Below are positions 20,631 to 63,310 of a DNA stretch of 64,000 nt, piece by piece. A program made the translations under genes and the position numbers. Origin of the DNA: Spirogloea muscicola. Lineage: Eukaryota > Streptophyta > Zygnematophyceae > Spirogloeales > Spirogloeaceae. The stretch lies in NCBI GenBank assembly GCA_009602725.1, contig WELB01000106.1, forward strand, positions 339,317 to 403,316. The letters run 5' to 3'. Numbering within the stretch: position 1 is the stretch's first letter; every line of letters begins with the position of its first letter. Below the pieces are notes generated by a model, which saw only the letters and a program-made list of their open reading frames with translations, did no database searches and was not told the origin of the DNA.

Positions 20631-20635
20631 CAAGG

Positions 20636-20990
20636 CGATGGCTGTGAGGCCAGCCCATTAGAAATGGACAAGGTCCGAAAGGGCCGGAAGGTACAAAACT
20701 TAGATTTACTCTCCAAGACTTCTGCTTATGAACGCACGTAATCTGTAGTCAACAAGTGCAGATCCGATCAAAAGATGGAGTAGCTCTGACTGAACCAGGA
20801 GGCAGCAGCTTATGTGCGGCATGCACGCAAGTGCACGTAAGTGTACGCAAATGCCAAAGGAACTCTGCAGAGGGAATGGCAAGGCGCTTCCTGTACGCCT
20901 GAGCAAGCGACCCGACGGCGTAGAAACTGGGCTGCTCGCTCTATTGCCCTTGACGGCGGGTAAGATCAGCATGCATGCATGCATGCACCA
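20636..20990 (-). mobile_element. LINE 3'-end remnant with hairpin tail
   Basis: Read on the minus strand, 20800-20960 carries the decayed LINE C-terminal motif GSLAQAYRKRLAIP. It is followed by sequence down to a tail at 20640-20690 with the family hairpin (plus-strand copy GGCTGTGAGGCCAGCCC). Better copies at 52.6-53.3 kb identify the family. The ORF is frameshifted. A short (GCAT)n tract lies at 20970-20987. Confidence 0.55.
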
Positions 20991-21147
20991 AGAGGTTGTC
21001 GATCTTCACAGCTTGATCTCCAGGCTTCACCGGACCGGCTTGCCCTCTGAACGCAAGCCGCCATCCTGTGAAAGTGTGGGCTGAGTCGAGTCGACTTCGT
21101 CGACCTTCCCAAAACATTCGCTTTGACGCCTAATTGACGTCGTGGTC

Positions 21148-21205
21148 AGTCTTTTTCCTGGGCTGGCCGGTCACAGCATTGCCCTCTACTGGAAGCGTCT
21201 TCCTT
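21148..21205 (+). repeat. Solo hairpin element upstream of PDCD2
   Basis: The sequence TTTTTCCTGGGCTGGCCGGT, then CACAGC and an ATTGCCCTCTACTGGAAG block, matches the LINE-tail hairpin family without a visible LINE ORF. It lies only about 60-110 bp upstream of the PDCD2 start codon, so it probably falls in the promoter or 5' UTR. Confidence 0.6.
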
Positions 21206-43255: not shown

Positions 43256-43560
43256 CGCGCCGCGCTGCCCGCCGCAGAATCCGGCGGCGGCGGCGGCGGC
43301 GGCGGAGGCGGCGGCGGCGGCGGCGGCGGAGGTGGAGCGATCAACTTGAAGTCAGCGTTAATGTTCTCCAGGTGTCAGTCACGCATTTCCATTAAGGGCG
43401 GGGGCCCGCCCCACGGCTCCTTCACGAGGAAGCTATGCGTAGAAAGTCCATGCCGCAACCACTCACTTGACGGGGTCTTGGCAGAGAAGCCGTCAGCAGC
43501 ATAACCGCCAAATTATCCCGCCATGAAACGGCAATCTAGCTCCTCCCCGTCGGGCTGGCC
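43256..43560. promoter_or_regulatory. HOP 5' region with CGG run
   Basis: A (CGG)n-rich run at about 43274-43335 lies immediately upstream of the HOP ATG, on the 5'-UTR side. A GGCGGGGGCCCGCC palindrome-like block follows at about 43397-43412. No TATA motif was identified. Confidence 0.4.
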
Positions 43561-43643: not shown

Positions 43644-43794
43644 CAATGGCGGGTGGCATGCAGCCGTGCACGGCAGTGGATGCATCACGATGGACGGTGG
43701 ACGGTGGCAGCCATGGATAAGAGACGACGCAGAAGGAAGCTCAATACCCACGAGTGAGCAGCAGCAAGCCCGAGTGACTCGCAGATCAGGACAG

Positions 43795-44340
43795 AGCTCT
43801 TCCAAGAGACGGCGATGGCTGTGAGACGGCCAGCCCAAAGGAATGTACAAAGCAGGGGACTAGGTCTAAGACGTCTGCAGGAGGACTCAATAACCTCTAC
43901 TCAGCCAGTCACAGTTGGTATTGTCAGAGGGCGGAAAGGCGTCGCCCCGACAGAAAGCTGCATGCAGCAGCCAAGATGCGACCTGCACGCAAGTGGACGG
44001 CAAATGCTAAGGACCGCTGCAGGGGTTTTGCAAGGCGCATCCTGTAAATTCGTGCAAGAGATTCGACGGCATTGATGCCGGGCTGCTCGCCCTGCTGTTC
44101 TTGGCGGCAGGACACAGCATGCCACGCAAGTCGCTGGAGTAGGTCGAGCCACCGAACGCCAAACTGATACGGCACCGAGATGCTTAAGAACGGCCTTGCC
44201 GCCTGACTTTCCATGCCCTTGGTTGGAAAGAGCGTCAGAGCTCTCCTCAGCCTTCGAGACCGGCGGCCATCCACAGCCCACCATCCTGTAGCAGGCTTCG
44301 GCACCACATAACGATCCACGCGACAACCCATGAAGAAGCT
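43795..44340 (-). mobile_element. LINE 3'-end remnant with hairpin tail
   Basis: The minus strand carries QFGVRWLDLLQRLAWHAVSC, then INAVESLARIYRMRLAKPLQ and RAGRILAAACSF. These align with the C-terminus of the copy at 52.6-53.3 kb (SQWLDLLARLARRAVS, GSLAQVYSMRLSISLQ, RAGRALAAACGF). The element ends with the family hairpin at 43818-43836. It lies just beyond the HOP promoter. Confidence 0.75.
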
Positions 44341-46604: not shown

Positions 46605-46795
46605 CTTCTCGTCCTTTGTTCATTCTTTTCTGGGCTGGCTTTTTCCAGCCCCTATCCTCAATGGGCGAGCCCTTCTCTCACTGAGAGTCTGCTTGCTGCT
46701 GTCTCTGTCCTTAGCACTCCGGCTCCTTCAGACCTTGTCCATCCCTTTGGGCTGGCCTCTCCCAGCCACCAGTCTGGCCGCGCTTGCTTAAAATA
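46605..46795 (+). repeat. Two hairpin elements in tandem, plus orientation
   Basis: Copy 1 (46610-46690) has core GGGCTGGCTTTTTCCAGCCC at 46632-46651 and is near-identical to 48315-48385. Copy 2 (46710-46792) has core GGCTGGCCTCTCCCAGCC and ends CTGGCCGCGCTTGCTT, near-identical to both arms of the inverted pair at 51.4-51.6 kb but without a 4-nt TTAA. Confidence 0.85.
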
Positions 46796-46839
46796 TTCGT
46801 CTCAAAAGGCACAGCGGCTGCGAATGGCCGCCCCAAGCA

Positions 46840-47420
46840 CAGGAAGTGGCTCTCCCAAAGAGGGGTTAAAGGCTGTGAACAGCCAGCTCGAATATAAGTA
46901 ACAGGTTCCGAAGGGGCCAAAAGCGCTGTCTCAGAGCTTGGGCAGGATGGATCACCTTTCTTTATTCCCCGCTTAGTAACCACGAGTGAGGAGCCGCAAA
47001 GCGAAAGACTAGCAGCCGGAAAGCGATCCCCCTGACGCATGCAGAGGCTGCAGCAAGAGCACGGCCGGCATGCAGGTGCAAGGTGTGGGCCGAGGACCGC
47101 TGGAGGGAGATAGAGGCGCATGCGGTAGACATGGGCTAGCGAGCCAGTGTCGTTGAAGTCAGCCTGCTCACCTCGCCTGCGGGACACAGCGCGCCGCGCA
47201 AGCAGGGCCAACAGGTCGAGCCACCGGGGACTCGAGAGCCCCGTGCACATCCACGGCCAGGGCTACGAACACGTCCCAAGCCGGGTGGTCTGCGTGCTTC
47301 ATCGCCTTGCTGCGAGCAGCGTTCGCCGCAGCATGGCCAGCCCTCGAGGCAGAAAGCCCCGGATTGGAACGGTCAAGCCAGCAGGGAAGCCAGGGTTTGC
47401 AGGAGGGAAGCGTCATACTC
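46840..47420 (-). mobile_element. LINE 3' end with hairpin tail
   Basis: Minus-strand segments DRSNPGLSASRAGHAAANAA, FVALAVDVHGALES, AARCVPQAR and GSLAHVYRMRLYLPPA are the C-terminal part of the LINE ORF, with frameshifts. The tail at 46845-46920 has the hairpin (GGCTGTGAACAGCC) and the GGGAGAGCCACTT box. It is colinear with the plus-strand copy at 52.9-53.47 kb. Confidence 0.8.
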
Positions 47421-47654
47421 CTTGTACAGCCCGCCCACTATGTCCGTAGGGGCGATTGTCCGCTGCAGTTAGCCCGCCCGTTGGCCGATGCAGCGAGTGA
47501 GGATTGCTAGCCCCAACTGCGGATCTCCTAGGAGAGGAAGGGAGGGAAGGGAGCAAGGTGTTTCTGCAGTCGTTGACGTAGATCCTCTGCTGCGTGGGTT
47601 GGTGTGCCAAGGGGAACCTTGAGCTTAGCCAGCCCATTGGCAGGAAAAAGGAAG

Positions 47655-47745
47655 AAGAAGAAGAAGTGGCTCTCCCAATGGGGGCAAGGGCTGTGAGAAG
47701 CCAGCCCGAAAAGAATTGACAAGGTTCGAAGGGGCCAAACTACGA
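47655..47745 (-). repeat. Solo hairpin element
   Basis: Minus-strand core GGGCTGGCTTCTCACAGCCC (47688-47707), followed by CTTGCCCCCATTGGGAGAGC and CACTTCTTC. It appears identical over more than 60 bp to the plus-strand copy at about 62565-62632. No LINE ORF adjoins it. Confidence 0.85.
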
Positions 47746-47874
47746 GCTAAGCAGCGACTGCGGGGCCTGAAGAGGCTGAAAAGGAAGGGAAGGAGGTCTG
47801 GGTGTTGGCGCTGGGTGCGCCGCATAGCCCGGCAATGGGTGCCAAGCCAAAAGGAAGAGAAGACGCTTCAAGGA

Positions 47875-48240
47875 GAAGGTGCTCGAGCTGGCATACACCA
47901 GCACCGTCACGGCCGCCGGGGTCTGGCAAATTGCAGCCAATTGCCGCCAGCCTCAGAGCGTGCAGTTGATGAGGTGCTCAGGGCTGTCCCAGATCTGCCG
48001 CTGAGAATATTGGCAGAGCGCCCCTTCCTCACCAAGCTGGTCAGTGACCAATTCTAGGTCCAGCACTTGCGTGGCGAGCTGCGAGAGCTGCCTGGTCTGG
48101 CACACCTGGAGGTCGTGTCCTCATTCCTGGACTATGGAGAGCCGGATGTGTTCGTGCAGGCAGAGCCCTCGCTGCTGCCTCTGGCTCTGGCCAGGGGACC
48201 CGCTTCCAGGAACCCAGTCTCTCTGACCTGAGGCTGCTTA
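47875..48240 (+). pseudogene. Leucine-rich-repeat gene fragment (copy C)
   Basis: The stretch VLELAYTSTVTAAGVWQIAA followed by NCRQPQSVQLMRC and RILAERPFLTKLVSDQF is a third copy of the LRR exon duplicated at 50.2-50.5 kb. After an in-frame stop the sequence resumes as QHLRGELRELPGLAHLEVVS, FLDYGEPDVFVQAEPSLLPL. The pattern L..L.L....I...G...IA..C..L is the cysteine-containing LRR found in F-box/AMN1-like proteins. Confidence 0.6.
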
Positions 48241-48304
48241 GCAGGGGTCACTGAGTGCTTCGTAGCTGCTACGTTTCTATTTTGTGCTTGTTGTTCTTCG
48301 TACT

Positions 48305-48392
48305 TCCCCTGGCCTCTTCTCGTCCTTTGTTCATTCTTTCTTGGGCTGGCTTTTTCCAGCCCCTATCCTCAATGGGCGAGCCCTTTATCCAG
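48305..48392 (+). repeat. Solo hairpin element inside LRR fragment
   Basis: TCGTCCTTTGTTCATTCTTT is followed by the hairpin core at 48343-48362 and ATCCTCAATGGGCGAGCCCT. Near-identical to 46610-46690. It lies between the two LRR segments, so it may have inserted into that gene. Confidence 0.8.
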
Positions 48393-48539
48393 TGTGTTCG
48401 ATGCCTTCGTCACCTCATGCCCGCGTTTGCGCGATCTCTCCCTGAAGGGAAGACATCCAGAGGATAATTGGAATGACTTAGGAGGGCAAGACATGGACTC
48501 CTTCTCACCCAATTGTAGCGGCCAGATGTAACTGCTCAC

Positions 48540-49200
48540 TGCGCTGATATTGAGGCAGTTGGCCATCAACTGGCCGCATCTGCTAGAGTTCCTCGTGCTG
48601 TGCGCCCCAAGTCTGCAGGCACTCCAGCTATATGAAGTCAGCTTCGATGATGCCGCTGTTCCTCACCACCACAAGCTGCCACTCTTGCACTCCCTTAAAT
48701 GCTCATTCCTCCCAAAGTGAAGAGCACATGGGGGAGCGGCAGTTCCTGTCCTTTGGACAATGTTGCCCAAGTCTCACGTCCTTGAGCATCCTTTGCCGTA
48801 GATCTAATTGGCCCTCTCTCATGAACAGCAAGATGTTGGTGGAGATGCTCAGTAATCTTAGCGGCCTGGTTGGTCTTGAGCTTGAAGTTCCTGTATCCGA
48901 TGCAGATACAGCTACAGATACAGATGAATGGCCTTTGGCATCAGATTCTAGAGATGCTCCTGACCTTTTGGATGCGCGGAGCAGCCTTAAGCTTGACTCT
49001 GTCAGGAGTCTTTCTGCCAGCACATGCGCGCCCACCTCTTGGCCAGTGCTTGTTCACAATTGCAGGCACGGCACATCCATAGCTGACCCAAACGTGATGC
49101 GACTATTTTTCTTGTCGACATACTCTCCACCTGCCCAAGTATTTGCCAAATCGGCCTTAGGGTTTACGGCAATTTCCTGGGTGTACAGTCCCGCTTACTA
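48540..49200 (+). pseudogene. LRR gene fragment downstream of the hairpin insertion
   Basis: Reads LRQLAINWPHLLEFLVLCAP, SLQALQLYEVSFDDAAV, HHHKLPLLHSLKCSFLP, then SHV...SILCRRSNWPSLM and a degenerate SNLSGLVGLELEVPVSD, in shifting frames with stops. The L..L.L pattern is clear at the start and fades. No complete protein can be assembled. Confidence 0.45.
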
Positions 49201-49769
49201 AGACTTCCTAAACCTGCTTCTTAGAGTTGTTTGACTCGCCTTGGCAGCTTTCCGAATATTTTCATGATTCGCATTAATCTGTGGACATCTATCATGTCCA
49301 TCGTGATGGCAACCACGACTTGTAATGTCAAGGATTTGCTTCGCTTGTCATGGACTACGGATTTGCGAGCAGCACGTGTCCATGCATGTGCTCTCACTGA
49401 CCAGCATGTGTTTCTTGCTATCTGCTTATATACCACATGACAAGTGCCAGCATTCTCTGGACCAGAATGATGTCACTGCAAGCTTTACTGACATTTGCAT
49501 CCTCACATCATGGAAGGAGAGCAATGAAGCAGAATACAAATGGGGATGACAAGTTTTGGTGGCGTAAAAGACTGACGGGTTTAGGGTCGGCCTTGCTGCA
49601 ACGGCCCACATTCATAGATGTGCTTACCTATGTAACATCAATGGGCCGATTTACTTTGAGGGTTTGGGCTTTTAAGATAAAGGGTTCAGGCTTCGCCGCC
49701 GATCGGGCCCCCACCGGCGGCCGCGGAGGCCCGCGGCAGGCCTCGCTGCCCTTGAGCACACGCCGCGCC

Positions 49770-50330
49770 TCCAACAGCTGCAACCCTTTAGAGCTCCCAA
49801 TGCGCCGCCGTCTGCAGCAGCCTCACTCGGCTCCTGGTGCTCGAGAGCCTGGCCCTGGACTGCCTGAAGGTGGGAGTTGAGCGACAGCGCCAGCCCACTG
49901 TGCCGCTTTGCTGACTGCGCGGCCGTTTCCTCGTGTGCACTTGCACCGCAAGCATACAAACATGAAGAAGACTGCAGCTGCAATTCGGTGCTGCAGAAGG
50001 GCATTGCCGGGTGTTGGCAGAAGATACTCGACCTTCGGCCTCATGACGATGCAACATTACGTGCTGGCAGACGAGGACATGCGCATCATCACATCACTCT
50101 GCCGCCGTTTGACGTGTCTGAAGCTCTCTGATTCAAAATATGGTATACGTGGTGAGACCTCAACATTCCAGACGAGGGCTTGCGTCAAGTGGCGGAACAT
50201 TTACACCAGCTTCAAGTGCTCGAGCTGGCAAGCATCAGCACCATCACGGCCCCTGGACTCTGGCAGATTGCAGCCAATTGCCGCCAGCTTCAGAGTGTAG
50301 ATTTGAGCAGGTGCTTTTGAGCAGGTGAAT
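49770..50330 (+). CDS. LRR (AMN1/F-box-like) gene fragment, left arm of an inverted duplication
   Basis: Exon-like pieces include CSSLTRLLVLESLALDCLK before a GTGGGA donor; LADEDMRIITSLCRRLTCLK then LSDSKYG; and IPDEGLRQVAEHLHQLQVLE then LASISTITAPGLWQIAANCR and QLQSVDLSRC. These are consecutive cysteine-containing leucine-rich repeats, typical of substrate-recognition parts of FBXL/AMN1-like proteins. No F-box or complete gene model is visible, and a stop follows SVDLSRCF. The mirror copy begins just beyond it on the other strand. Confidence 0.55.
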
Positions 50331-50343
50331 GCTCGCTCCCAGG

Positions 50344-50960
50344 TCACTGACCAGCTTTGGTGAGGAAGGGGCGCTCTGCTAATATTCTCAGCGGCAACTC
50401 TGTGGACAGCCCTTGGCACCTGCTCAATCGTACACTCTGAAGCTGGCGGCAATTGGCTGCAGTCTGCCAGACCCCAGCGGGCCGCGTGATGTGGATGTCT
50501 GCCAGCTCGAGCAGCCGAAGCTGCTGTGGATGTTTCGCCACGTGATGCGAGCCGTCGTCTGATGGTTTTGAGACATTGCTACCACTTCTACCAACTTTGT
50601 CTAGATCAGAGAGCTTCAGACACGTCAAACGGCGGCAGAGTGACGTGATGATGCGCACATCCTCGTCTGCCAGCACCGCGGTGTTGCATCGCCAGGAGGC
50701 CGAGGGCCAAGGCTCTTCTGCCAGCACCCGGCCTTGCCCTTCTGCAGCCATGGCAGCTTGCAGCCTTCTTCATGTCTGTATGCCTGCGGTGTCAAACGGT
50801 CTTGAGATAATGGCCGCCCGGATATGGATCAATCTGTCTCATGACGATCGAGCGGTCAGGCAGAGGGCTGGCGCTGTCGCTCACCTCCCACCTTTGTGCA
50901 GGCCCAGGGGCTCGAGCACCGTGAGCCGAGCGAGGCTGCAACAAAGGCCCGGGCGTCAGG
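50344..50960 (-). CDS. LRR gene fragment, right arm of the inverted duplication
   Basis: The minus strand reads CSLARLTVLEPLGLHK before a GTGGGA donor, then VLADEDVRIITSLCRRLTCL, KLSDLDKVG, QLRLLELADIHITRPAGVW and QTAANCRQLQSVRLSRCQGL, ending RILAERPFLTKAGQ. It matches the left arm in order and content, with the protein-level differences expected of diverged copies. The arms meet tail to tail around 50335. Confidence 0.55.
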
Positions 50961-51019
50961 TCATCTGCCCAGCGCCAGGCCGCGGCGCGCGGCGCGCACG
51001 GCGGCGCGCCAGGCGGCGG

Positions 51020-51044
51020 CAGGCGGCGCGGCGGACATGGCGGC

Positions 51045-51075
<31 letters not shown>

Positions 51076-51080
51076 GACAT
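51020..51080 (+). repeat. GGC trinucleotide run
   Basis: ATGGCGGCGGCGGCGGCGGC and further units, interrupted by CAGCGG. It would encode poly-Ala or poly-Pro. Sits at the outer edge of the right LRR arm. Confidence 0.8.
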
Positions 51081-51104
51081 GGGCGAAGGCGGACATGGCG
51101 GCGT

Positions 51105-51260
51105 CTGCTGCATCGGTCCATGGCATGGGCATGCGCGCTGCATCCGCGTGGCGGTCGCGCCATGGCTACAGCCTGCTTCTCGCCCTAGGGCCAGGGGACG
51201 GGTCCCGCTTGCCTACACCTGGATACGTCTGGCTGGCCGTTTACAGCCGCTCGTTAAATA
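51105..51260 (+). mobile_element. Short LINE C-terminus plus hairpin remnant
   Basis: Plus-strand frame RSMAWACALHPRGGRAMATA aligns with QRSMAHALHHALRAGRALAA of the copy at 53.2 kb, followed by a degraded hairpin (GGCTGGCCGTTTACAGCC at 51230-51247). Confidence 0.5.
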
Positions 51261-51361
51261 TCGGCAGCCGCATTCGTTGCTTCTTTGCCTGCCGACGTAG
51301 TCGGGGCGGGTTGCTCAGGGCATTCTAGCGTCCCCGCAAGCCGATCGTTGCATGCTATAGA

Positions 51362-51589
51362 ATGTCCTTAGCACTCCGACTCCTTCAGACCTTGTCCATT
51401 CTTTTGGGCTGGCCTCTCCCAGCCACCAGTTAATCTGGCCGCGCTTGCTTTGCCTTATAGAATGCTGCTATCATTGAGTCTACAGGCGCTCCCATGCACT
51501 TGAAGCAAGCGCGGCCAGATTAACTGGTGGCTGGGAGAGGCCAGCCCAAAGGAATAGACAAGGTCTGAAGGAGCCGGAGTGCTAAGGAC
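51362..51589. repeat. Inverted pair of hairpin elements (about 88-bp arms, about 52-bp loop)
   Basis: Left arm 51362-51450 and right arm 51503-51589 are reverse complements with only a few mismatches (for example CTCCGACTCC versus CTCCGGCTCC). Each arm contains the family core GGCTGGCCTCTCCCAGCC. A third direct copy lies at 46710-46792. Confidence 0.9.
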
Positions 51590-51999
51590 TGAGACAGCAG
51601 CAAGCGGACCCTCAGTAAACTCTAGTCAGTAGAGGCAAGTCTGAAGAGCTAGCAGGCGGAAAGACGTCGCCCTGAGTCACTTGCGATTCACCAGCGTGCT
51701 GGGCGTGTATTAGCCCAGGCTAATGGCTTCCGTGGTGGTGGTTTGGCTCCTCGTCTTAGCTTGTCAGATATGCATGTGCTCACTCGGGGATACGAGTGTC
51801 TCCCTTAGCTAGCTCATTACCCCGTAATAGGACATTTGTAAGGCTAGAATTGGCCTCACTATCAATGTCATGCGCACCGCGCGCCTTCTCTCTTTCCTGG
51901 AGACCAGTTTATTCGACCTGCGGCTGCTCAACAGGGGTTACCGAGTGCTTCGCAGCTACTTGATATGTTGTGTGCTTTGAAGCTCTCTCTTTCCAGCGC

Positions 52000-52360
52000 T
52001 CGCTGGCTCAGTCAGTCGGAAAGAGACTGCTCGCCCACAGAGAAGAGGGGCTAGCAAAGCCAGCCCAAAAAGAATGGACAATATCCAAAGCCAAAAAGTT
52101 GCCGAAAAGAAGAAACTGCAAAACTAGACACGAGATGATGAAGATGGAAGCTCAGTACCCACGAGTAAGCAACAGCAGGTCCCAGTAGCTCGCAGCTGGG
52201 AAAGAAGAACTTAACGAGCAGGCCGCGCTATGGCTGCTGCATCTGGGTCTAGGCGGAGTGCCTCTTTTCCAGCCAATCACGGTGACGTCATCGTTTGTAT
52301 GCATCTGGCTGGCTTTCACAGCCGCTCTTTTAATATCAGCAGCCGCTTTCATTTCCAGCT
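52000..52360 (-). mobile_element. LINE tail remnant
   Basis: Minus strand: a frame ending SYWDLLLLTRGY matches the C-terminal SDLRLLTRCY of the 53.3-kb copy. It is followed by the hairpin GGGCTGGCTTTGCTAGCCCC at 52048-52067 (minus sense). A second degraded hairpin (GGCTGGCTTTCACAGCC) lies in plus sense at about 52309-52325. Confidence 0.55.
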
Positions 52361-52629
52361 GTGAGTTACTCCCGACTTGCTGCTGCTCACCCGTCCCTTC
52401 GACAGACGTGCGCGGCCATGCTCGGCTGCGATCAGCATCCTCTCCTGGCGCGGCAGCCTAGCTCTCGGCGCTCCCCCTCTACGACGTACTCAGAATGCCG
52501 GATGAGCGTTTTTGCACGGCAATCCACCGCCTGCTGGGTCTCCTCCCGCCCCGTATGAACACCTGTATGCATCTGGCTGGCTTTCACAGCCGCTCTTTTG
52601 TTTTCAGCAGCCGCTTTCCACTTTCTGTC

Positions 52630-53475
52630 TGCTGGGCGTGCTGCAGTGCGAGCGCGGGGAACGGTCGGCAAACCTGGCGGAGCTGGCGGCGCATGTCCTC
52701 CGCTGCGCCACTGGAGGTGAACGCACGGCAGCCCACGACCTCCTCCGGGATGCCATGTTCGGCATATTTGTGAGAGGCCGGCTACACGATGGCAATGGAG
52801 AACACTTCTACAATGCCAATCTTACAGAAGGCGGACGGGCTACACACGCCGACGCGTCGACTTGGTGGCCTCCACGCCGGGAGGCGGCGCGCGCATCATT
52901 GCAGACGTGGTCACCACCAATGTGGTGGACCGATCCAATCCGGGGCTCTCTGCCTCGAGGGCTGGCCATGCTGCGGCGAATGCCGCTCGCAGCAAGGCGG
53001 CCAAACACGCTGACCACCCGGCTGGGGACGAGTTCGTACCACTGGCCGTGGATGTGCACGGGGTTCTTGGGTCCCAGTGGCTCGACCTGCTAGCCAGGCT
53101 TGCGCGGCGCGCTGTGTCCCGCAGGCGTGGTGAGCAGGCTGACTTCACCGCCGCTGGCTCGTTGGCTCAGGTCTACAGCATGCGACTCTCGATATCCCTT
53201 CAGCGGTCCATGGCCCACGCCTTGCACCACGCTTTGCGTGCTGGCCGTGCTCTTGCTGCTGCCTGTGGCTTTCGTCGGCGGGATTGTTTTCCGCTAGCTA
53301 GTCTGTCGGATTTGAGGCTCCTCACTCGTTGCTATTGAGTGATTTATCCTACCCCCGTTTTGAGATTTGCGCGTCTGGCCCCTTCGTAGTTTGGCCCCTT
53401 CGACCCTTGTCATTTGTTTTCGGGCTGGCTTCTCACAGCCCTTGCCCCCATTGGGAGAGCCACTTCTCACTCGTA
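52630..53475 (+). mobile_element. Non-LTR retrotransposon (LINE) 3' part: C-terminal ORF region and 3' tail
   Basis: The best copy in the window. In shifting plus-strand frames it reads HVLRCATGGERTAAHDLLRD, then GGGARIIADVVTTNVVDRSN, AGHAAANAARSKAAKHAD, FVPLAVDVHGVLGSQWLDLL, ARLARRAVSRRRGEQADF, GSLAQVYSMRLSISLQRSMA, RAGRALAAACGF, ending SDLRLLTRCY at 53336. This order (Cys/Gly zinc-binding remnant, R-x-D-V, FVPLAVD.HG..G...LL..LARR) is the region after the reverse transcriptase in LINE ORF2 proteins. The tail carries the hairpin (53422-53441) and GGGAGAGCCACTTCTC. RT and endonuclease are absent, so it is a 5'-truncated, frameshifted insertion. Confidence 0.85.
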
Positions 53476-53519
53476 GTTACTAAGCTTCCATCTGCAGTAA
53501 TCTCGTGTCTAGCTGTGTG

Positions 53520-54115
53520 GTTTGAGGAGAAGAAATTGCGCGCCCGTAGAGAAGAGGGGCTGGCTCCTTCTAAGCTCCTCTTGGCACTTTGAACCTTGTC
53601 CATTCTTTTTGGGCTGGCCTTTCCCAGTCCCTACCTTCTGTGGGCGAGCACTATCCTGTCTCTGGCCCCCCCAGATTTTCTTCTTTCTTTTTCCTGGGCT
53701 GGCCTATCGCAGCCACTGCTCTCTCCTGGTAGCTTCTTTTTCCTTGAAGCGCGCCGAGCACGCGGATAGCCGAGCTTACGAGCGCGGCAAATTGAGCAAA
53801 AGCGGCATTCAGTAACGTGCAACAAATGCCTGGGGAATGCTGGCGTGGCCCAAGCTGCCCCCCCCGACTTCGACGACGTGCGTCTACCAATCGGGCCAGA
53901 TGCTGGATGAGGGAGGACCATGTCATGCCATAGCCACCGTAATCATCCATGGCACACGAAATAGGAATCAAGCAAGGTACGACGCAGCCGGAAGCTCTTC
54001 AAGTAAGCGAGTGAGCTCCTCCAAAGAAGAAAACGAGGGCTGTGAAGAGCCAGCCCAGAAGAGAGGACAGAGTCCAAACGAGCCGGAAAGTGACCATCAT
54101 TCGTGGCAACGGCAC
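53520..54115. repeat. Cluster of solo hairpin elements in both orientations
   Basis: Cores at 53611-53630 (plus), 53696-53715 (plus) and 54037-54056 (minus). The flanking boxes (CCTTGTCCATTCTTTTTGGG upstream, GGGCGAGC downstream) recur in order. No LINE ORF adjoins them. Confidence 0.75.
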
Positions 54116-55189
54116 TGACAGATGCAGCAGCAGATCGGGCTCAGCTTCTGACGCAGGCCGGCCTGCATGCAAGCGACAGCGGCAGCCATCCCAGGCTGCT
54201 GTATTGATGGAGAGACGGCCCACTGGAGGGCCTATTGGCTAGGCGGGGACTGCATGGTGCATCCAGGCCGCCAAGCTTTCAATCACGCCAGCATCAATTG
54301 ATGCAGCCTGCGTCTCTGAGGGAGGGGGGGAGAGCTCAGACGAGGTACTGCGGTGCGCTGCAAGATGCGCCTCATTGAGCATGGCTAGCGCAGCTGAATG
54401 ATGTCCTCCAGGGCAGGGAGGTGCGCTGGGGCTTTGAGTTGTCCTGCAGCCGGTGTAGGTTATGTGCACCAGGCATAATGAGGCCATCCGGGAAGTCTTG
54501 CAGCCCTGGGATGATGCCAGGGCCGGGGGAAGGCTAGACGTTAATTCCTCACTGCGCCAGTGAAATGGCTAGGAACAGCAGGCTGGCGCTGGAGGTTGCT
54601 GAAGGCCGCAACAACGTCGTCAGGATTGCCAACCAGCATGGTACTGTTGGCTTCGATGGGAAGCAGAAACTTGGAATGGGAGGTGGCCATGGCCTTCAAA
54701 GGGGTCTCGTCATAGCTGCCTTAAGCACTGGTCACCGTCCACTGTCGAGCCCATATCTAAAGCCTCATGATGGGAAGGCTTTGCTGCTACTCTAGCCGCC
54801 ATGCCGGACCTGCAAATCGCAAGATGCATGGCTCGCCCACTTGTGTCTGCGCACCACGCTGTCAGGCCAGCATTCGTGCAGAGAGGGGAGCTGGAGACCA
54901 CGATCATGTGAAGTTGCACGATGTCCTGCGACTCGAGCTCTTGACCTTTCTCAACACCATTGCCATCTGCCAGCCTGCCTCTCTTCATGATTGCTCTTCG
55001 TTGGACGCAAGGTGTAGGCGAGTTGGTGTAGTAAGGGCTGGTCACCACATTGTGCATCCCCAAGGTTACACTCGTCATATGGGCTGTTTTCTTTTGAGAG
55101 ACGATGCGGTGTCCCCAGAAATAAGTACTGTGAACTGTGAAATTTACTCGCCCTGAGCATAGCCCCTAGCCCAACTTCGCAGCCTTAGC
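54116..55189. other. Region with fragments of possible coding sequence, unassigned
   Basis: The minus strand has protein-like stretches in different frames: MATSHSKFLLPIEANSTML, GNPDDVVAAFSNLQRQPAVP to a stop near 54530; and QDIVQLHMIVVSSSPLCTNA, GLTAWCADTSGRAMHLAICR at about 54810-54940. They could be exons of a small unknown gene or a decayed element. No family is recognised. Confidence 0.25.
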
Positions 55190-58100
55190 TTAGGAAGCAA
55201 CCTTTGCTGCTTTGCCACTTGTGTCGCGCTTGGTAGCCCGGGGTCGCCTCTCTTCCGTCCTGCGCTTAAGTTTGGCTTTCGAGTTGGCTCGTACCTTGGG
55301 GATGGCACTCTGCAAGGGACGGGCAAACAAGGATCCACGCATCAATGCCTTGTGCAACCAATCTTTTAGCAATGTAAACATCTTGGTCTAAGCAGATTGC
55401 TCATAACCCTCTTCCTGTCTTGCAAAACGTGCTGACGTTGAATTGAAGACCAACATGATCCAAGTCAGGAGTTGGTAAGTGATCGTGCGTAATACTGATA
55501 GAACAATTAGTCAGAAAGCGGGCCCCTTACTTTGTGGGAGACTCTGCGGCCACCTTTGATGACCTTGACTCGAGTCGTGGTTGTGCGGCTGAGCTTCACT
55601 TTCAACTTGACCTCTGCCTTCCCCTCCTTGTAGAACACAGAAGAAGGCCCGACCATCACAGAAAGACTATTCAGTGTCGAGGGAGCAACTTTTGACCTTC
55701 CATCTGCTACATCGAATTCAGCACAGCGGGCGTAGCCACAGGAGTGGAGCCGCAAGCATCCAATATGCATCCGATAACAGTATTATACCTGGGGTGAACA
55801 GCAAATGCCACATAAGATTGAGCACCTCAATGCCCTGTGGGAGGATACGAAGCAAACCTGGGTTGCACCGGCCTGTGACTGCATGCTAGGCTGTCCACCA
55901 GCTTCTGCAGCCGCTTGAGAAACCCTCACAACTTCCTCATCCGAATGAGCAGCGATCTCATCGATAGCACCTGCCACACTTGCATTGCCCACCATCAAGC
56001 CCCGTGCTGGGTCCATCCCATGTATAAACAACTCCCCTAGACTCCTAAGTTTCATCTGTGTGTAGTTCTGTATTAAGGTTCTCTGATCATCCCCTGCGGG
56101 GATGCCCAGAATGGTAAATGAGCTGCTAAGCTATGGAGAGTGCACCTAAAGAAGGACGCGATGAACGCAAAGTATTGTGATATAACAGGTGCTGAGTGAC
56201 TCTGAAACTGCTGCAATGACCCAACTCGCAAAGACCTAATAGTAGCCCATTGGCCTTGTCTCAAGGCATGCTACCTTCAATTACAGTCTCGCTCTCATAA
56301 ACATTCACTTCAGGCTCGAGCTGCACAAAGTCGTTGATGACCGCTTCAACCTGTGCACCGCTCCCAATTGCTTTTCAATGGCCAGCTTAAATGACCAAAC
56401 ACCAGAGCAAAGAGCAGTAATGCAATAGCAATTTCTGACATATGTTGGTTATACCTTCGCCATTGTTTGTCCAATGTTCACCTGTCAGCCACAGTGCAAC
56501 AACACCACATGGAGCTGCCAACCAAAGGCTTTATCTCAGATGCAGTACTCTGCTTCCTGATCGTGTCTACTTATCTGCAGCAGAAAAGGCTATATTGCAA
56601 CACGAGAAGAGATTGTAGATACAGTAGCAGCTCTCATAGGTGTCTCCGTGGGCTTTCTTTACACATGCAAAGCCTTACAGCTGTGCAAGGAAACGGGTGC
56701 CAGTACCACGAGGAATGTGTTTGACGGTATTATTGTCGCCCTGTACACGCAGCCTGCACATCAGTCACAGCAGCACAGAGATACCTCAAGATAGGGAGGG
56801 AGGTGACCACCCTTGCCAATGAAGCCTGCCTGTCAGCCAAGCTGTATACTTTCTTATCAACAGACGCGGAGCCTGTAGTTGACACAGCTCATAGCTAAGG
56901 CACTCTGCAAGCCCCTGATACTCTGTGAGAAGGTACAGGCACTTCGACGGGTTTCTACCTTTCATGTCAAGCAGCATGTGGTTGTCCGTGTTCTTGTCCT
57001 CGGACTTCCTGATGGAGAAGCGCCCAATAGCTCCCATGTCGCCACTGACATCGAGCGTGTCCCCCTCACACTCTATTAGGGCCTGGCAACCATGGATGTG
57101 GGAACAAATGGTAATTGTGACCCACAGAGTTAGTGGGAGCATCTCCGGTCGACTTGCTTGACAGTACAAGCAATGTGGCAGTCATTTGTGGATGACCCTT
57201 CAGAAAATTGTGCAAGTATCGGAGAGATCTGCGCACCTTGGTCTGCTGCACCTTGTCTGCAAAAAATATAGGGAGCATGGATGCTGCCTGCAAAGCCAAC
57301 CAGCCGCGACACTGAGGACTTCAGCAAATTTACATTCACAGCAGAGATATTAGCCTCATGACACAGGAATGAGGCTGGTGCTGCACTGAGCTCGGCCGCG
57401 CCCAGGGTTGTAAGAGTAAGGCGGCGTTGTTCTGGTAGGTCTGACAGAGACGCTGACGGTCTCGCTGCCGCCAAAATCACCACGCTGTGCGCATGGCCAG
57501 GACGAGCGTGACAAGAGCAACCAACTTTTTTCTCTTTAACTGCTGAGAAGGCGCCATAAACTGTTGGAACGACCTGCTACTGGAAAGGTATTGGAGCATG
57601 CAGCGAGCTTACCCGCTGCTTGCCCTTCCTATCGAGCACAGTCGCCTCTCCATTTGGAGCTGCTGGCAGCTCGTCCTCTGGCTCGACAATGACGTCCCGG
57701 AGGCCATTGTCATCATCAGCGAGCTTGATGATTGACTTGACCACCTTGGCAGGGGATCCGAGGGGCGGCGCAGGCCCGACTCCTGGCTGCTCCGGGGCCT
57801 CTGCCGCCGGCGCGCCGTCATCCTCCAGCGGCAGAGCTGCCAGCGGGGGCGATGCCGCGAACAGGCTTCTCCTTCCTGGCTCGGGGCCTTTGCTGCCATT
57901 GCCGGCGCCGCGAGTGGCTCTCCGCAGCCGCTTGCTTACTGAGCCGCCCTCCTCGCTGCAGCCGTGGCCACCACCAGCAGCCCGCTTCTTGCGGCCGCTG
58001 CTCCGCTCGCTCCTGTCGTCAGAGAGCTCAATGACAGCCGGCGCAGGCGCTTGCTGGGACACGCCAGCGCCGTCATTGCCTTCAAGCCCATGTCTGGCGC

Positions 58101-58293
58101 TGCGCTTCGTCTTGCAGCCGACTCGTGGGCTGCTGATAGAAGGCCTCCCAGGCGCCTCCGCAGCATGGTGCTGTAGACCTCTGGCCGCCGCCTCCGTTGC
58201 CGCCCCTGCCTGGTCGACCTCGGCGCCATCACTTCGTAGAGTTGGGTGCTCTGGTGAGGAGTCGGACGGGGCGTCGCCGACGGCGGCGGGGCT
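55190..58293 (-). CDS. BIN4: BIN4/MIDGET-like DNA topoisomerase VI cofactor (5' exon unresolved)
   Basis: In Arabidopsis BIN4 (MID) binds DNA and works with the topoisomerase VI complex needed for endoreduplication. Exons join in phase: 57613-58293 (disordered, KKRAAGGGHG, SKRLRRATRG), then AASMLPIFFADKVQQTK, ALIECEGDTLDVSGDMGAIG and RFSIRKSE...HMLLDMKG, GCVYRATIIPSNTFLV, VNIGQTMAK, VEAVINDFVQLEPEVNVYES with ETVIE, GELFIHGMDPARGLMVGNAS, a basic KLKVKLSRTTTTRVKVIKGG exon, and a Lys/Arg-rich end (AKLKRRTEERRPRATKRD, stop at 55190). The ECEGDTLDVSGDMGAIGR core, the TFLV segment and VINDFVQLEPEVNVYESETV match the plant protein. The minus frame has a stop just upstream of 58293 and no ATG, so a first exon lies further upstream beyond a GTCGCAG acceptor. 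The GELFIHGMDPARG segment looks extra relative to the plant core. Confidence 0.82.
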
Positions 58294-58529
58294 CTGCGAC
58301 ACAAGCGCTGCCGAGCGGATTTAGTAGAGCCCTCTTCAACAAGGGAATGCTGCTACTGACATTAAAAGCGGCAACAATGCAGTGCACGAGACAGCGCTCG
58401 CCGGGTCACTGGAATGCGGCGATGCGCTGGGGTCTGACTACTGCAACTTGGGTTCCTGGAACGAACGCCTTCCCAGTCATACACTAGATTGTGGGCTTCA
58501 AGATTTGGGCTTTGAAATCGGGTTGGACA

Positions 58530-58790
58530 GCGGAAATCAAGAGTCGCAGGATGCCCAAGTCAGCTTCATCAGCACAACGAGGCCAAGATATTTCCGACAT
58601 TACGACGGCAGCGCCGCCGCCGGCGGGCGAACACAGAGGTGTAGAACGGCCGAGTCGATGCTTTTCCGATGTCAGCTTCGTCAGCATAATGAGGCCAAGG
58701 TGTGGAGAACACAGAGTTGCAGAATGCTCGAGTCAGGCATCGGCTTTCAGGTGTCGGCTCCATCAGCCCGATGGGGCCAAGGTGTCACTG
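58530..58790. repeat. Three degenerate repeat units upstream of BIN4
   Basis: Units start at 58559, 58671 and 58753. The first two read GTCAGCTTCRTCAGCAYAAY followed by GAGGCCAAG; the third is GTCGGCTCCATCAGCCCGAT with GGGGCCAAG. Each is preceded by a related GAGTCGCAGGATGC-like block. Short minus-strand frames (HYADEADIG) result from the repeat. Confidence 0.65.
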
Positions 58791-59190
58791 AAGCTACCCA
58801 AGCGGTGGCGCTGGCGGCGATGGCGGCGGCGCTGCTGGCGGCGCCAGCTCCCATGCGGCGCTGACGCCTGGGAGCTGAGCCCAGGATCAAGCTTCTTCAG
58901 ACTCCAGGGGAAGGCTCAGGGGTTCGAGTCTGGAGGGTTGCTCCGACCTGGAACTCTCGGAGCCAGTCGGGCGACGGCTCGCGCTCCGGCGACGCCGCCA
59001 TCCATGCCCGCCCGCCCGCCGCCGCCGCCGCCGCCGCCGNGAGCGGGCGTGGGGCTCAAGCGCACGCCCGGGGTTTAAGAAGTAGGTTTGTTGGGCCGGC
59101 CTGGGGTTTAAGCACAGCGCCGCGGAGCTCGAGTTGCGTGCGTCCTTGCCGGTGGCGGTTGCGGCGGCGGCGGCGGCGGCGGCGGCGGCC
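58791..59190. promoter_or_regulatory. Divergent promoter region of BIN4 and the FrnE-like gene
   Basis: GC-rich with CCG/CGG runs at about 59018-59039 and 59160-59190 flanking an unresolved base at 59040, and a GGGGTTTAAG pair (about 59080 and 59103) related to the telomere-like motif. The FrnE-like start codon follows the second run directly. Confidence 0.45.
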
Positions 59191-61114
59191 ATGGAGGCGC
59201 CGGCGGCGACGCTGCGGGTGGACGTGTGGAGCGACGTCGCCTGCCCGTGGTGCTACGTCGGCAAGGCGAGCTCCGCAACCAAGTCCCGGTCTCGGCAATG
59301 GCGCTCCTTGCGACGGCGGCGGCGCTGAAGCTCCTGCGAGGCCGCCATGGCGTGCCGCAGGCCCGGCTGGACCAGGCAGTTCTCAACGTCCAGGAAGCGC
59401 AGCGGGACGCCGGCCGGGCCGTGCACGTCAAGGTTGACTGGTGGTTGGCGAGCCCCTGAAGCCCCTAAGCTCTGCAGCGTTCTACTTACAGATTGTTATG
59501 GCTTTCACGTCACCATAGGCACAATCATCTTAAGCATATGTTATCTGCGCCGATACATGGGTCACACTACCAAAACACATCATGTTGGTTCTGAAGCAGC
59601 AGCCTCATCTTTGTGCTGATAACCTTAACCCACTTGGGCATTTGAGCAAAGCTTGATCATGGTAGCTAAGAGCGTAGCACCCGCAATTGTTTGACCAATG
59701 ACTCGCCACCAGAGCCCCAATTTCATGCATTAGCTTGCATGCATGCATTAGCTTGCCTGCATGAGAGTGGCCCACTCGTGTGGGTCAGTGCCCGCATCGT
59801 TGCTGCAGCCTGATAGTGTGCTCCTCGTGAACAAGTCGTTTTGGTTGGGAACTCAGGCACCCTTACATGATCGACTTAAGCACTGCACCCAACGGCGAGG
59901 AGTACGCCGCCTACAACCAGCGGCGGTGGGGCGGCGACGGCTGGACCCACAAGCTGCGGCGGTGAGAGCCCGGGCTACTTGATGACTTTCGACATGAAAC
60001 CCAAGGCCTGAAGCTTGAAAGTCCCACTCTCTGTATCCTGCATCATAAGTTGTTGAGGCACTTACGAAGGTGCCACGATATGGACAGCGAGTACTGCCTC
60101 TTCAGCATAAGTTGTGCCGGCACCACCATGCGTCATGTTTTAGACGAGATCTTGCTGCACCTCAGCTCGCTCCTCATGTAGCACTGTCGCACCCGTCCAG
60201 CTCCGGGGCGTCTTCTGGCCTTGACTTTGCCAAGTGGGATTGGTGGCCAAACACGTTGCATGCTCACAGGTCCGCCTCTCCACGTGACTCGCCCTTTAGC
60301 ACATTCAGTTGCTCGAGCCGACAACCTAAGAGAGCACGCGTTATTCCTCACAATTGTGTAGCATGCTTCTTCTGGTATTGAGAAGCTGAGTTGCTTGCTG
60401 AGTGCCAGGCTCGTTGAGCTTGCCAAAGCGAGAGGCAAGGGCCCTGAGGCAAAGCAGGAGCTCCTTCTGCGGACATATGAGATGGGCGAAAACGTGTCAG
60501 ATCTTGGCGTCCTCTGCAGGGCGGCGGAGCAGATTGGCCTGGGCGACGTGCGGCATTATCTGGTGAGTGCTCCGGTCCTTCAACGAGGGCCACTTGTGCG
60601 GATGCGCTACGCCTCCTTGCTTGTCATTGAATAAACCTTCTGTGGTGCATCAGCATCAAATACAGGGCACCTGCAATGTGCTTTTGTCAATCATGCATTT
60701 TCAGTGATTTGTGAACTCGTCTTCAACTGCAAGGTTGCCATGGCAGGAGTCCACTGATGGCGTGGAGGACGTCCTGGACGCTGACAAGCATGCAAAGCAG
60801 AGGCTGAAAATCAGCAGCGTGCCCTCCTTCAGATTTGGCGACAGCGTGCAGCTCTCGGGCGCTCAGGTCCCATTCGTGTCATATCGATCCTGCAAGCGCA
60901 TTGCAACTGATGTTTCTTGAAGTTGCCTGCTGGCACTGTTTGCTTTAGCGAGCTGCGACAGTGCTTGGGGTCGTACTTGCAGGTGGACGAGACTTTGTGG
61001 TGAGGCTGACAATATGGGTTGAATGCTTGCTGGCAGGATGTGGGCTTCTTCGAGTGCTTGCTCAATGACGCGTTGCCTCCAACTTGGACCAGGAGATCCT
61101 ATTGTGCTAGATAA
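59191..61114 (+). CDS. FrnE/DsbA-like thioredoxin-fold oxidoreductase, complete
   Basis: Seven exons (59191-59265, 59361-59440, 59857-59961, 60201-60269, 60409-60562, 60747-60866 and 61037-61114) total 681 nt, 226 aa, usual for the FrnE group. The N-terminus [20 protein letters not shown] with CYVGK holds the CPWC redox motif at residues 18-21. It is followed by [70 protein letters not shown] and [19 protein letters not shown] (cis-Pro loop VPSF). All match the FrnE pattern. The first intron runs AAG|GCGAGC to CCGCAG|GCC; this GC donor is the only one found that preserves phase. There is no signal peptide, so a cytosolic or nuclear site is inferred. The C-terminal [18 protein letters not shown] replaces the usual QP.E.F...L end. 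Confidence 0.9.
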
Positions 61115-61540
61115 GCAGAGGTCTCAGGTGTTGCATACATTGTGGTGTGGACCCTGGCAACTTTTGCAACTTGATACTCGCACCTGGGTCAATCGCTTTC
61201 TCAGAAAAAGTCAACAGCCAACCTCTCATAGTCTAAGACTGTGTTCAACAAGAGTGAAAGGATGCGCAGAAAGACAGATTCAGATTGACCCCTGCTCCAA
61301 CAACCCCACAATTGAAATGGACAGAGGCGGTGGCCCACAGAATTGCAAAAGACAGATGCATGTGCACGTCGTCAAGCTGGAGTGGGAATTGTGGGCCTTG
61401 GCCGTCGCATGGGCTGCGGGCTCGGCTTGGGAGCAGGCTGGGCAGGAGCTGGCAAGGCGCGGGCGAAAGAATGATGCCGCTGATTCATCAACGTTTGCCG
61501 CTGCTGATACAGCCGGCTGTAAAAGTCAGCCACTTGCATA
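61115..61540. other. Intergenic, no supported gene
   Basis: Several frames are open but with no recognised motif. The right part grades into LINE-derived sequence. Confidence 0.4.
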
Positions 61541-61965
61541 CAGAAGGTGTTCATGAGTGAGCAGCGCAGCCACAGGCTAGGCAGACAGGGCGCTCCTAGT
61601 ATTCCCGTGTCAGCAAGAGGAAGTCAGGTGAGCCGAAAGCCGAAGGAGGAGAGGGGCAACAACCTCCAGCCCGATCGTGCTCTTGGAGCCGAAGGAAGAC
61701 TCCATAAGTGGGCGATGGTTGTCATTGGCCAGCCCAAGTGAATGAGAAAAATTTGAATGGGCCAGTAAAGTATCAAAGCACACAGCGACTCAAGCGGCCA
61801 CTGGGTCCTCAATAGCCCCTGTTGAGAAGCCGCTGGTCAGAGAAATCGGTCTCAGGTAGCGGGTCCCCTGTCTATAGCCAGAGGCTGCAGCCATAGCACA
61901 ACCGGCACGCAGATGCAACGCGTGTGCCATGACTGCTGCAGCGATACGGGCAGGTGCATGCTCTT
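61540..61965 (-). mobile_element. LINE 3'-end remnant with hairpin tail
   Basis: Minus-strand pieces (SLQQS...HTRCICVPVV LWLQPLA, a frameshifted form of SLQRSMAHALHLRAGRALAA, at about 61860-61945) precede a tail at 61700-61790 containing GGGCTGGCCAATGACAACC, the family core with a weakened stem. Confidence 0.5.
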
Positions 61966-61969
61966 AGCT

Positions 61970-62670
61970 CCTTATACATTCCTTTGGGCTGGCCACTAAC
62001 AGCCACTGCCTTTCACTGGAAGAGCTGTTTCTCAGTGGGGCTTCCTTTTTCTGGGCTGACCAATCACAGCTATCGCCCTCTACTGGAAGGGTCTTTCTCT
62101 TTCCTCCTGGACTTGCTTTTCACAGTCCTCTGCCCCCTCTCTTTCCTTGAGGAAGAGCTTACATCTTTCCAAACGGGCTGGCATTTCACAAGAAGAGACA
62201 GCTCCTTCGGTGTAAGGCAATTGGCTGTGAGCGGCCAGCCCACAGGAATGAACAATTGAGAGATCAATCATTCTTCTGAACAAGGTCACAGCCCTCGCCT
62301 CCTTTTATATTCCTTTTGGCTGGCCTCTCACAGCAATTGCCTTACATTGAAAGTGAGCTGTTTCCTTTCTTCCTTTGGATGAGCTTACTGCTTGCCCTCG
62401 CCCCTTTGGACGAGCCACTTTCATATTTTGGCCCTCCCCCACTTCGTTTTTAGGGACTCTCACCTGTTCATTTGTCTTGTGCTGGCATCTCACAGCCGTT
62501 GCCCTGCATTGGATCATCTGTTTCTGGGACTTCATTCATTCTTTTCATGGGTGGCCAATCACACGAACCTTGTCAATTCTTTTCGGGCTGGCTTCTCACA
62601 GCCCTTGCCCCCATTGGGAGAGCCACTTCTTCTTCAATTACAGCCATCGCCCGTATCTGAAAGACGCTCT
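61970..62670. repeat. Array of six hairpin elements
   Basis: Cores near 61986-62004 (plus), 62053-62070 (plus), 62223-62241 (minus), 62319-62334 (plus), 62480-62500 (plus) and 62585-62604 (plus). They share GGCTGGC...CACAGC, upstream ATTCYTTTYGGGCTGG and downstream TTGCC boxes, and vary elsewhere. The last is a close match of the element at 47.7 kb. Confidence 0.8.
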
Positions 62671-62979
62671 CTTATTCCCCCAGTCATGGTGGGGAGGGCG
62701 GCTCCCCGACGGCACGAGCCGGACGGGGCGGAGGGCGGTGCTGTTAGATATAGTTGCATGCTTTCCTGCTCATTTGCCCTTAACACTATGTAATCGCATC
62801 ACTTAGAGGCGCTTGTCGCCTCCGGAGCTGCTGCCCAGGCCGCCGGGGCCGCCTCGTAGTCGCCACGTTTGCAGCTGAGTCAGTAGGCACGCGCCAAGTT
62901 CGATAGAGGTCCGTTGCTTGGCGTGCCCGTTTGAAGGGGCCAGAGAGAGCGCACAGGGAAGCAAGGAGCTACACCAAGG

Positions 62980-63310
62980 AGCTAAAAGCAAGGAGCTACA
63001 AGACACTCAGTAACCCGTGTTGAGCAGCGGCAGATCGGAGAGACTTGTCTCCAAATGGCGGGTTTCCTTCCTAGAGAGGCTGCAGCTAATGCGCGCACGG
63101 CTCGCAGATACAGCGCGCGTGCAATTGACCGCTGCAGCGAGACTGACAGGCGCATGCGACATGCCTGCGCGAGAGAGCCTGCTGCATTGTCATCCGCCTG
63201 CTCCCCATGGTACCGGCGGGAGACAGAGCGCTGCACTCCCTCGAGAGTAGAAGAAGAGAGACTCTTCAGTCGAGGGCGATGGCTGCTGTGATTAGCCAGC
63301 CCAGAGGAGC
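62980..63310 (-). mobile_element. LINE 3'-end remnant with hairpin tail
   Basis: Minus strand: GSLAQACRMRLSVSLQRSIA and RALYLRAVRALAAA, preceded by RSVSRRYHGEQADDN, match the LINE C-terminus (GSLAQVYSMRLSISLQRSMA). In this segment the ORF and the tail at 63270-63302 (GGGCTGGCTAATCACAGCAG in minus sense) are in different places, showing rearrangement. Confidence 0.65.

Follow-up and report, generated by a model that had tools for sequence, protein, structure and literature searches.

The R2 reverse transcriptase (RT) recognizes the 3′ structure of its own RNA. In the bipartite recognition model described for stringent long interspersed nuclear elements (LINEs), families share a stem and differ in the loop (PMC4176376), and in Chlamydomonas pairs, short interspersed nuclear elements (SINEs) share the tail of a LINE (PMC3747384). 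Here we describe a hairpin module that recurs in a 64,000-nt stretch, referred to as the window, of the genome of the alga Spirogloea muscicola (153.1 Mb in 471 contigs). This repeated hairpin is the common 3′ end of many R2-related retrotransposon families, and these families likewise share a stem and differ in the loop. An initial annotation, made from the letters of the window, had described the module both as a LINE tail and as a signal exploited by a SINE-like element. Our analysis makes it very probable that the module is the common 3′ terminus of LINE families of the restriction-like endonuclease (RLE) type, related to R2, and that its short copies are 5′-truncated members of these families, with no need for a SINE.

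A tail shared by at least seven families

With up to three mismatches, the GGGCTGGCTTCTCACAGCCC hairpin gave 11 matches in the window against 0.00 expected, and the accompanying box gave 12 against 0.45. Searches with seven family queries recovered 23 tail modules at E ≤ 1e-3 and 24 at E ≤ 0.5, in agreement with the approximately 24 copies counted initially. The sequence TTGCCCCCATTGGGAGAGCC, which had been said to often follow the stem-loop, occurs just three times in the window (0.01 expected) and is a property of family A. Genome-wide, the exact A hairpin has 1,615 matches and its control none, while the pattern GGGCTGG-N1-9-CAGCC has 38,554 matches in 153 Mb versus 91 for the reversed pattern; as palindromic stems match both strands, the true number of places lies between about 19,000 and 38,500. 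The same seven queries found 222 tails in 286 kb, made up of the window and of fetched loci that had been chosen for the exact A hairpin.

At least seven tail families, for which the labels A to G were coined in this analysis, have a common layout. A box like CCTTGTCCATTCTTTT is followed by a GGGCTGG...CAGCC hairpin; then comes a second block containing TGG, and most families finish with a CTTCTT-like end resembling CACTTCTT. The loop reads GCTTCTCA in A, CCTCTC in B, CTTTTT in C and TTT in D, its length being 8, 6 and 3 nt in A, C and D with the stem retained, and the second block also varies between families.

The tails are tied to LINE proteins by their position. A first search for C-termini returned 20,885 candidate places, and 150 of them were scored. 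Where copies of A, B, C, D, F and G are cleanest, the LINE C-terminus ends about 110-150 nt before the tail end. For six of the seven families, some tails stand behind a LINE C-terminus that belongs to the family itself, the tie of family G consisting of one window copy. The longest matches of B, C, D, F and G show 48-64% identity to LINE A. The initial proposal of a LINE 3′ tail proved right, and the sharing of this tail among families with no more than about 50-65% identity in their C-termini agrees with a signal that the LINE reverse transcriptase reads.

In the window, a C-terminus precedes its own tail at six places. At 43.8 kb, a decayed LINE C-terminus (43930..44220, minus strand; tblastn to LINE D, E 3e-18, 58% identity over 43930-44187) is followed by a G-like tail (43792..43851, minus; 28.3 bits in nhmmer, as for all tail scores below). 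At 46.8 kb, decayed coding pieces ending in the C-terminus (46966..47644, minus; several tblastn high-scoring segment pairs, at most 86% identity to LINE A) precede an old family A tail (46841..46907, minus; 26.6 bits). At 53.4 kb, the C-terminal region of LINE A, comprising linker and RLE in two pieces (52626..53335, plus; 85-88% identity to LINE A by tblastn, E 5e-76), precedes a further A tail (53403..53467, plus; 46.6 bits). These three associations had been noted before, together with two that were not confirmed. At 63.3 kb, the F-like tail (63254..63305, minus; 15.6 bits, E 1e-3) has its neighbouring LINE fragment (63108-63230, minus) on the wrong side and not upstream, and the G-like tail at 20.6 kb (20616..20675, minus; 23.1 bits) has no LINE protein match at E 1e-3.

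The other three associations go beyond those of the initial annotation. The copy at 48.34 kb, formerly called solo, has its own LINE C C-terminus up to the last residue (48129..48251, plus; tblastn 78% identity, residues 1298-1338 of 1338), followed by a family C tail (48322..48385, plus; 43.4 bits). At 52.0 kb, the last 19 residues of LINE D (52155..52211, minus; tblastn 79% identity) precede a family D tail (52027..52085, minus; 31.7 bits), and at 61.7 kb a C-terminus in pieces (61812..61930, minus; tblastn to LINE C, E 7e-5) precedes an F-like tail (61693..61747, minus; 17.0 bits, E 3e-4).

The LINE protein and its class

One copy, L070 on contig 453, has a single open frame of 1338 residues with two N-terminal CX2CX12HX3C motifs, an RT, a CCHC motif and a C-terminal domain. 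The N-terminal motifs matched Pfam C2H2 models at E 0.096, below the cut-off, and the RT matched RVT_1 at E 8.3e-16 (E 2.8e-17 in a second copy, L069). A profile of five members searched against the PDB retrieved R2 proteins only, with three sequences at E ≤ 1 and a best value of E 6.5e-8 over the RT; a single-sequence search against the PDB gave no R2 match. The C-terminal residues of RLE-type LINEs have been described as D, D and KX2KY (PMC5678591). Downstream of the RT, the two D and the first K of KX2KY are invariant in four members, the latter motif being intact in two of them (KELKY, KEKKY) and carrying one change in the other two (KAAKH, KERHY). No apurinic/apyrimidinic (APE)-type endonuclease was matched by Pfam in the 1338-residue frame up to E 5. 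We file the element as a putative RLE-type, R2-like LINE, with an endonuclease predicted from its motifs.

Among 100 scored RT matches, 17 have an identical score of 665.4 bits, and their open frames, uninterrupted by stops, span 1,142-1,403 residues, which indicates that one family was amplified recently. One fixed insertion site, which is usual in the RLE group and not strictly defining for it, was not found here; the 104 A copies have many different 3′ flanks, which mostly begin with CTTC-like sequence. A search of viral contigs found no relative. A separate group of RVT_1 matches also has identical scores, mostly in 1237-residue open frames (contigs 33, 170, 235, 267, 412 and others), and its sequences point to another recently active retroelement.

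Solo copies as probable truncated LINEs

The copies that stand alone had been attributed to a SINE-like element using the LINE hairpin. They look instead like 5′-truncated LINEs, some inserted inside older ones, and not like a separate parasite. Lengths were assessed for the 104 A copies with a whole tail (105 found, one duplicate dropped). Matched to the LINE, these copies measure 60-850 bp with a median of 149 (n = 104), plus one of 3448 bp that is limited by an assembly gap, and two A copies are cut by the end of the fetched stretch. The lengths are spread out, with starts in the 3′ untranslated region (UTR) or in the open reading frame (ORF). Furthermore, 160 of the 216 copies with enough upstream sequence have a head abutting the tail that is common to another copy of their own family.

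Target-site duplications, which the initial annotation had proposed to look for on the solo copies, are present, but in the manner of truncated LINEs and without supporting a SINE. In the 87 A copies scoring 40 bits or more, 25 have exact duplications of at least 8 bp, against a mean of 2.24 over 50 shuffles, and the typical size is 8-10 bp. The duplications mostly start with C or T, and many with CTTC or TCT. This likeness to the element's own end suggests that the nicked primer pairs with the CUUC end of the RNA.

A SINE-like element with its own head and a covarying stem, exploiting the LINE hairpin, would account for how common very short copies are (20 of the 104 A copies are below 80 bp), for seven A copies that end at 98-101 bp, as a short fixed element might, and for the 56 of 216 copies whose head is unique in the sample. 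Against this stand the spread of lengths and the make-up of the seven copies (L009:6060, L019:7258, L024:6519, L026:6646, L054:1374, L055:524 and L067:205), which begin in the LINE 3′UTR without a head of their own. Nine further copies start 113-117 bp from the 3′ end, also inside the 3′UTR, and the near-identical start of the seven perhaps reflects a preferred stop of reverse transcription. The initial annotation had proposed to look on the solo copies for an RNA polymerase III A/B-box head or a start derived from transfer RNA (tRNA) or 5S RNA; in the window, ARAGORN gave no tRNA gene, and all Rfam families stayed below their gathering scores. The stem tests described below gave no compensatory change. 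The length spread of truncated LINEs together with the lack of covariation is the outcome that the initial annotation had itself named as speaking against its proposal, and it applies to the SINE part. We consider a SINE highly improbable and rejected it on the spread of lengths and because no head of its own was found.

The remaining tails of the window were located as follows. Solo copies are an F-like tail (21146..21204, plus; 24.1 bits), a family C tail with upstream homology to 73 bp from the 3′ end (46611..46675, plus; 47.2 bits), a family B tail (51386..51449, plus; 50.4 bits), a family E tail (53592..53652, plus; 38.6 bits) and a second F-like tail (53692..53738, plus; 20.1 bits). Another B tail, with an extent of 185 bp, has no LINE C-terminus upstream (46729..46788, plus; 33.8 bits). 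The solo B copy is faced by a B tail on the opposite strand (51504..51567, minus; 47.2 bits), so that 51386-51567 forms an inverted repeat of about 180 bp. Two young A copies score 56.0 bits each. One is 117 bp long with a 9-bp candidate duplication (47659..47727, minus), and the other, of 68 bp, holds barely more than box, hairpin and end (62565..62633, plus). The latter lies beside a series of G-like tails (61971..62032, plus, 31.5 bits; 62193..62255, minus, 22.2 bits; 62307..62364, plus, 24.5 bits; 62464..62525, plus, 21.1 bits, with the hairpin variant GTGCTGG..CAGCCG) and an F-like tail (62046..62098, plus; 29.1 bits). A partial D tail (53534..53565, minus; 16.7 bits, E 4e-4) and a weak A-like tail (54015..54059, minus; 9.3 bits, E 0.12), whose hairpin at 54037-54056 has two mismatches, complete the set.

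Counter-evidence and the role of the hairpin

Several observations weigh against the reading of the module as the 3′ terminus of RLE-type LINEs with truncated copies and an RNA signal in the hairpin. Family E has no LINE of its own tied to its tail. A profile of the C-terminal domain by itself had no PDB match at E ≤ 10, so that the RLE assignment rests on motifs, and the CCHC motif, which is invariant, has the spacing CX1CX12HX3C and departs in this from the zinc knuckle published for RLE-type LINEs before the endonuclease, CX2-3CX7-8HX4C (PMC5678591). In addition to the 56 unique heads given above, 62 of the 87 A copies have no exact duplication of 8 bp or more. The remaining points on this side concern the hairpin. 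No compensatory change was found within families in 222 tails. The arms are clearly less variable than the loop in family C only (in A slightly, with a bias from the choice of loci), and the 3′ arm of B and both arms of D are more variable than the loop. Furthermore, the folding of A and B tails does not exceed that of shuffles (z -0.52 and -0.29). On these points, recognition of the hairpin is a prediction.

The stem had been said to keep pairing while its sequence changes. This description was not confirmed; the 5′ arm is nearly always GGGCTGG and hardly varies, and the families differ in register, stem length and loop length. The tails tested were the 222 of 247 masked-hairpin matches that span the hairpin, and 215 of them have a stem of at least 5 bp, nearly all of the GGGCTGG type with a handful of other stems, a raw count without a chance control from loci many of which were picked by the A hairpin. 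In a mixed alignment of 56 tails from seven families (at most 12 per family, near-identical ones dropped), one of 837 cells was compensatory with the outer helix included, versus 2.9 in shuffles. Genome-wide, the compensated variant GGACTGG..CAGTC has 211 matches and its control 211, showing no excess. The corresponding single changes number 839 (control 159) and 983 (control 91), two counts that overlap through palindromy. This genome-wide test covers one pair. Independent change alone should produce about 16 doubles, which is below the sensitivity of the test, while a large compensated lineage would show. A double change of non-partner positions is commoner, with 342 matches (control 97), and its single change has 1,804 (control 61). 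Covariation of the stem was rejected on the counts within families, in the mixed alignment and, for the one pair, genome-wide. A change from C-G to A-U between A and D needs a register shift and is not claimed as covariation.

Folding differs between families. In family C (27 copies), the arms vary by 0.5-1.6% versus 11.1% in the loop and 10.9% in the box, and C and D tails fold better than shuffles (z -2.86 and -4.28). In these two families (for example 48322-48385 and 52027-52085), an outer helix of 7-10 bp can form, in which the box would pair with ATGGGC downstream of the hairpin and enclose it. The outer helix pairs in 76% of cells across the 56 tails of seven families, with covariation not above shuffles. 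Compared with shuffled tails, the best helix between box and tail stands clearly above in C, less so in D, A, F and G, and not in B and E. RNAalifold on the 56-tail alignment returned a weak and different consensus of -1.74 kcal/mol.

By analogy with the stringent LINEs and R2, recognition of the hairpin by the RT is likely, yet unproven, and the missing covariation is no refutation of it where the stem is nearly constant. The tail might alternatively have been kept by common descent or exchange, with the RT reading only the CTTCTT-like end and the hairpin having no role. The near-invariance of the stem without covariation, the shuffle-like folding of A and B tails, and the many duplications with a CTTC-like start, for which terminal annealing may suffice, are all compatible with that idea. 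It accounts less well for a box and stem that stay alignable across families while the C-termini diverge to about half identity (48-64% to A), for a stem kept through the changes in loop length among A, C and D, and for the low variation of the C arms relative to their loop. We regard this alternative as unlikely.

Insertion into older tails

Some copies lie within older ones. The 3′ flank is the inside of another tail in 28 of the 104 A copies, and 13 of these were confirmed on both flanks by matching. Three more look nested by eye (L011, L017 and L028), four others have no readable 5′ flank, and the remaining cases, known from the 3′ flank only, may in part be short copies lying side by side and not nested. 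An older tail end lies within 40 nt upstream of eight of the 104 A copies. Among the B, C and D copies, tail flanks were found in 7 of 63, three of them near the loop. Eight of the 88 tails found by the A end alone show no visible 5′ arm of the hairpin, and three of these directly follow another tail and may be severed halves.

The insertions are biased in orientation and position. Twenty-four of the 28 A copies in tails share the orientation of the tail (10 of the 13 confirmed), and 15 of these 24 same-strand cases, including 6 of the 13 confirmed, fall at family positions 28-35, in the loop or where the 3′ arm begins. Tails make up 6.1% of the sample. On the same strand, tails (positions 1-57) contain 5.1% of all CTTC sites and the loop contains 3.1%, and for TCTC the shares are 8.3% and 6.0%. 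The loop share of insertions, 15 of 104 counted loosely or 6 to 9 of 104 counted strictly, corresponds to about one to four or five times the value expected from word content. More specifically, CTTC and TCTC occur on the same strand at positions 28-30 in A, B, F and G, and TCTC occurs on the opposite strand at position 54 in A. The orientation and position of the nested insertions follow these CT-rich words, whose spread explains much of the landing in loops.

An endonuclease that recognizes the hairpin as a cruciform in DNA and homes to it would also place insertions in the loop or where the 3′ arm begins, as in the 15 of 24 same-strand cases. A near-palindromic DNA hairpin should, however, give both orientations, and none of the 15 loop cases is in the opposite orientation, the four opposite-strand cases lying at family positions 43-55. 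The CT-rich words, found on the same strand in the loop and on the other strand near position 54, fit primer matching and explain the pattern. Cruciform homing was rejected on these grounds, and we hold it to be very unlikely. Matching between primer and template on CT-rich words is the simplest reading of the landing in tails. The hairpin may even be used twice, as an RNA signal for the R2-like protein and, in old DNA copies, as a landing site through its CT-rich loop, a proposal that we consider unlikely. If it were true, the element would be generating target sites for itself, and part of its spread would be limited to the remains of its earlier copies.

Other features of the window

Two exon-like ORFs on the minus strand (41519-43351) resemble a green-plant HOP/STI1 co-chaperone. 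A 1098-residue open frame rich in R, S, E and D (25863-29159, minus) possibly encodes an RS-type nuclear protein. Degenerate AACCCTC repeats at 22044-22104 are telomere-like and lie about 150 bp before a 25-bp tandem repeat.

Proposed mechanism and significance

In the mechanism that we propose, the RT would bind the 3′ hairpin of its own RNA, and the endonuclease would nick where the primer end can pair with the CUUC-like end of the RNA. Synthesis of cDNA would usually stop early, leaving most copies short. Because older tails carry CT-rich words as their loops (CTTCTC, CCTCTC), new copies would sometimes land inside these loops and form nested clusters. In kind, these are ordinary 5′-truncated LINEs with a shared tail. 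Less ordinary are the dispersal of this R2-like lineage, its very high copy number and its partial nesting in its own remains, and our searches of the open-access literature found no description of such an element in green algae.

If the tail is a recognition signal, a single genome with at least seven families and with tail matches in the tens of thousands amounts to a natural library, and families with the same stem and different loops would make the RNA specificity of R2-type proteins readable from sequence and testable. R2 proteins have been used for RNA-templated gene insertion (PMC11331408), for which a dispersed R2 relative that seemingly primes on a short CTTC-like site offers a useful contrast. 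Landing in CT-rich loops would furthermore be a simple route to partial self-targeting for a LINE without a fixed site.

Comparison with known systems

With the RLE-type LINEs (R2, R4/Dong, CRE, NeSL, Hero and Utopia), the Spirogloea element shares the single frame, the RT and a CCHC motif, together with candidate zinc-finger motifs and candidate RLE motifs at the C-terminus. Unlike them, it is dispersed and not found at one ribosomal RNA, small nuclear RNA or spliced-leader site, and it differs in its CTTCTT-like end, its 8-10-bp duplications and its CCHC spacing. In a term search, the Utopia paper gave no match for 'green alga', Chlamydomonas, Volvox or Coccomyxa (PMC4640811).

The stringent LINEs UnaL2 of eel and ZfL2-1 and ZfL2-2 of zebrafish have the same kind of stem-loop near the 3′ end. 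These belong to the L2 clade, whereas the Spirogloea LINE is R2-like and its recognition of the tail is predicted.

Among green-algal LINEs, the pairs of Chlamydomonas SINEX with RandI/Dualen or L1-1_CR resemble the present case in their shared 3′ tails and short 3′ repeats, with the difference that no SINE was found among the Spirogloea tails. Dualen carries a dual endonuclease, with an APE-type domain and an RLE, while the Spirogloea 1338-residue frame has no APE-type Pfam match. Zepp of Chlorella and Coccomyxa forms nested clusters of LINE copies, and this nesting in green algae resembles that of the Spirogloea copies. Zepp is listed as an L1-clade LINE with a poly(A) end (PMC3747384), in contrast to the Spirogloea element, which is R2-like and ends in a CTTCTT-like sequence.

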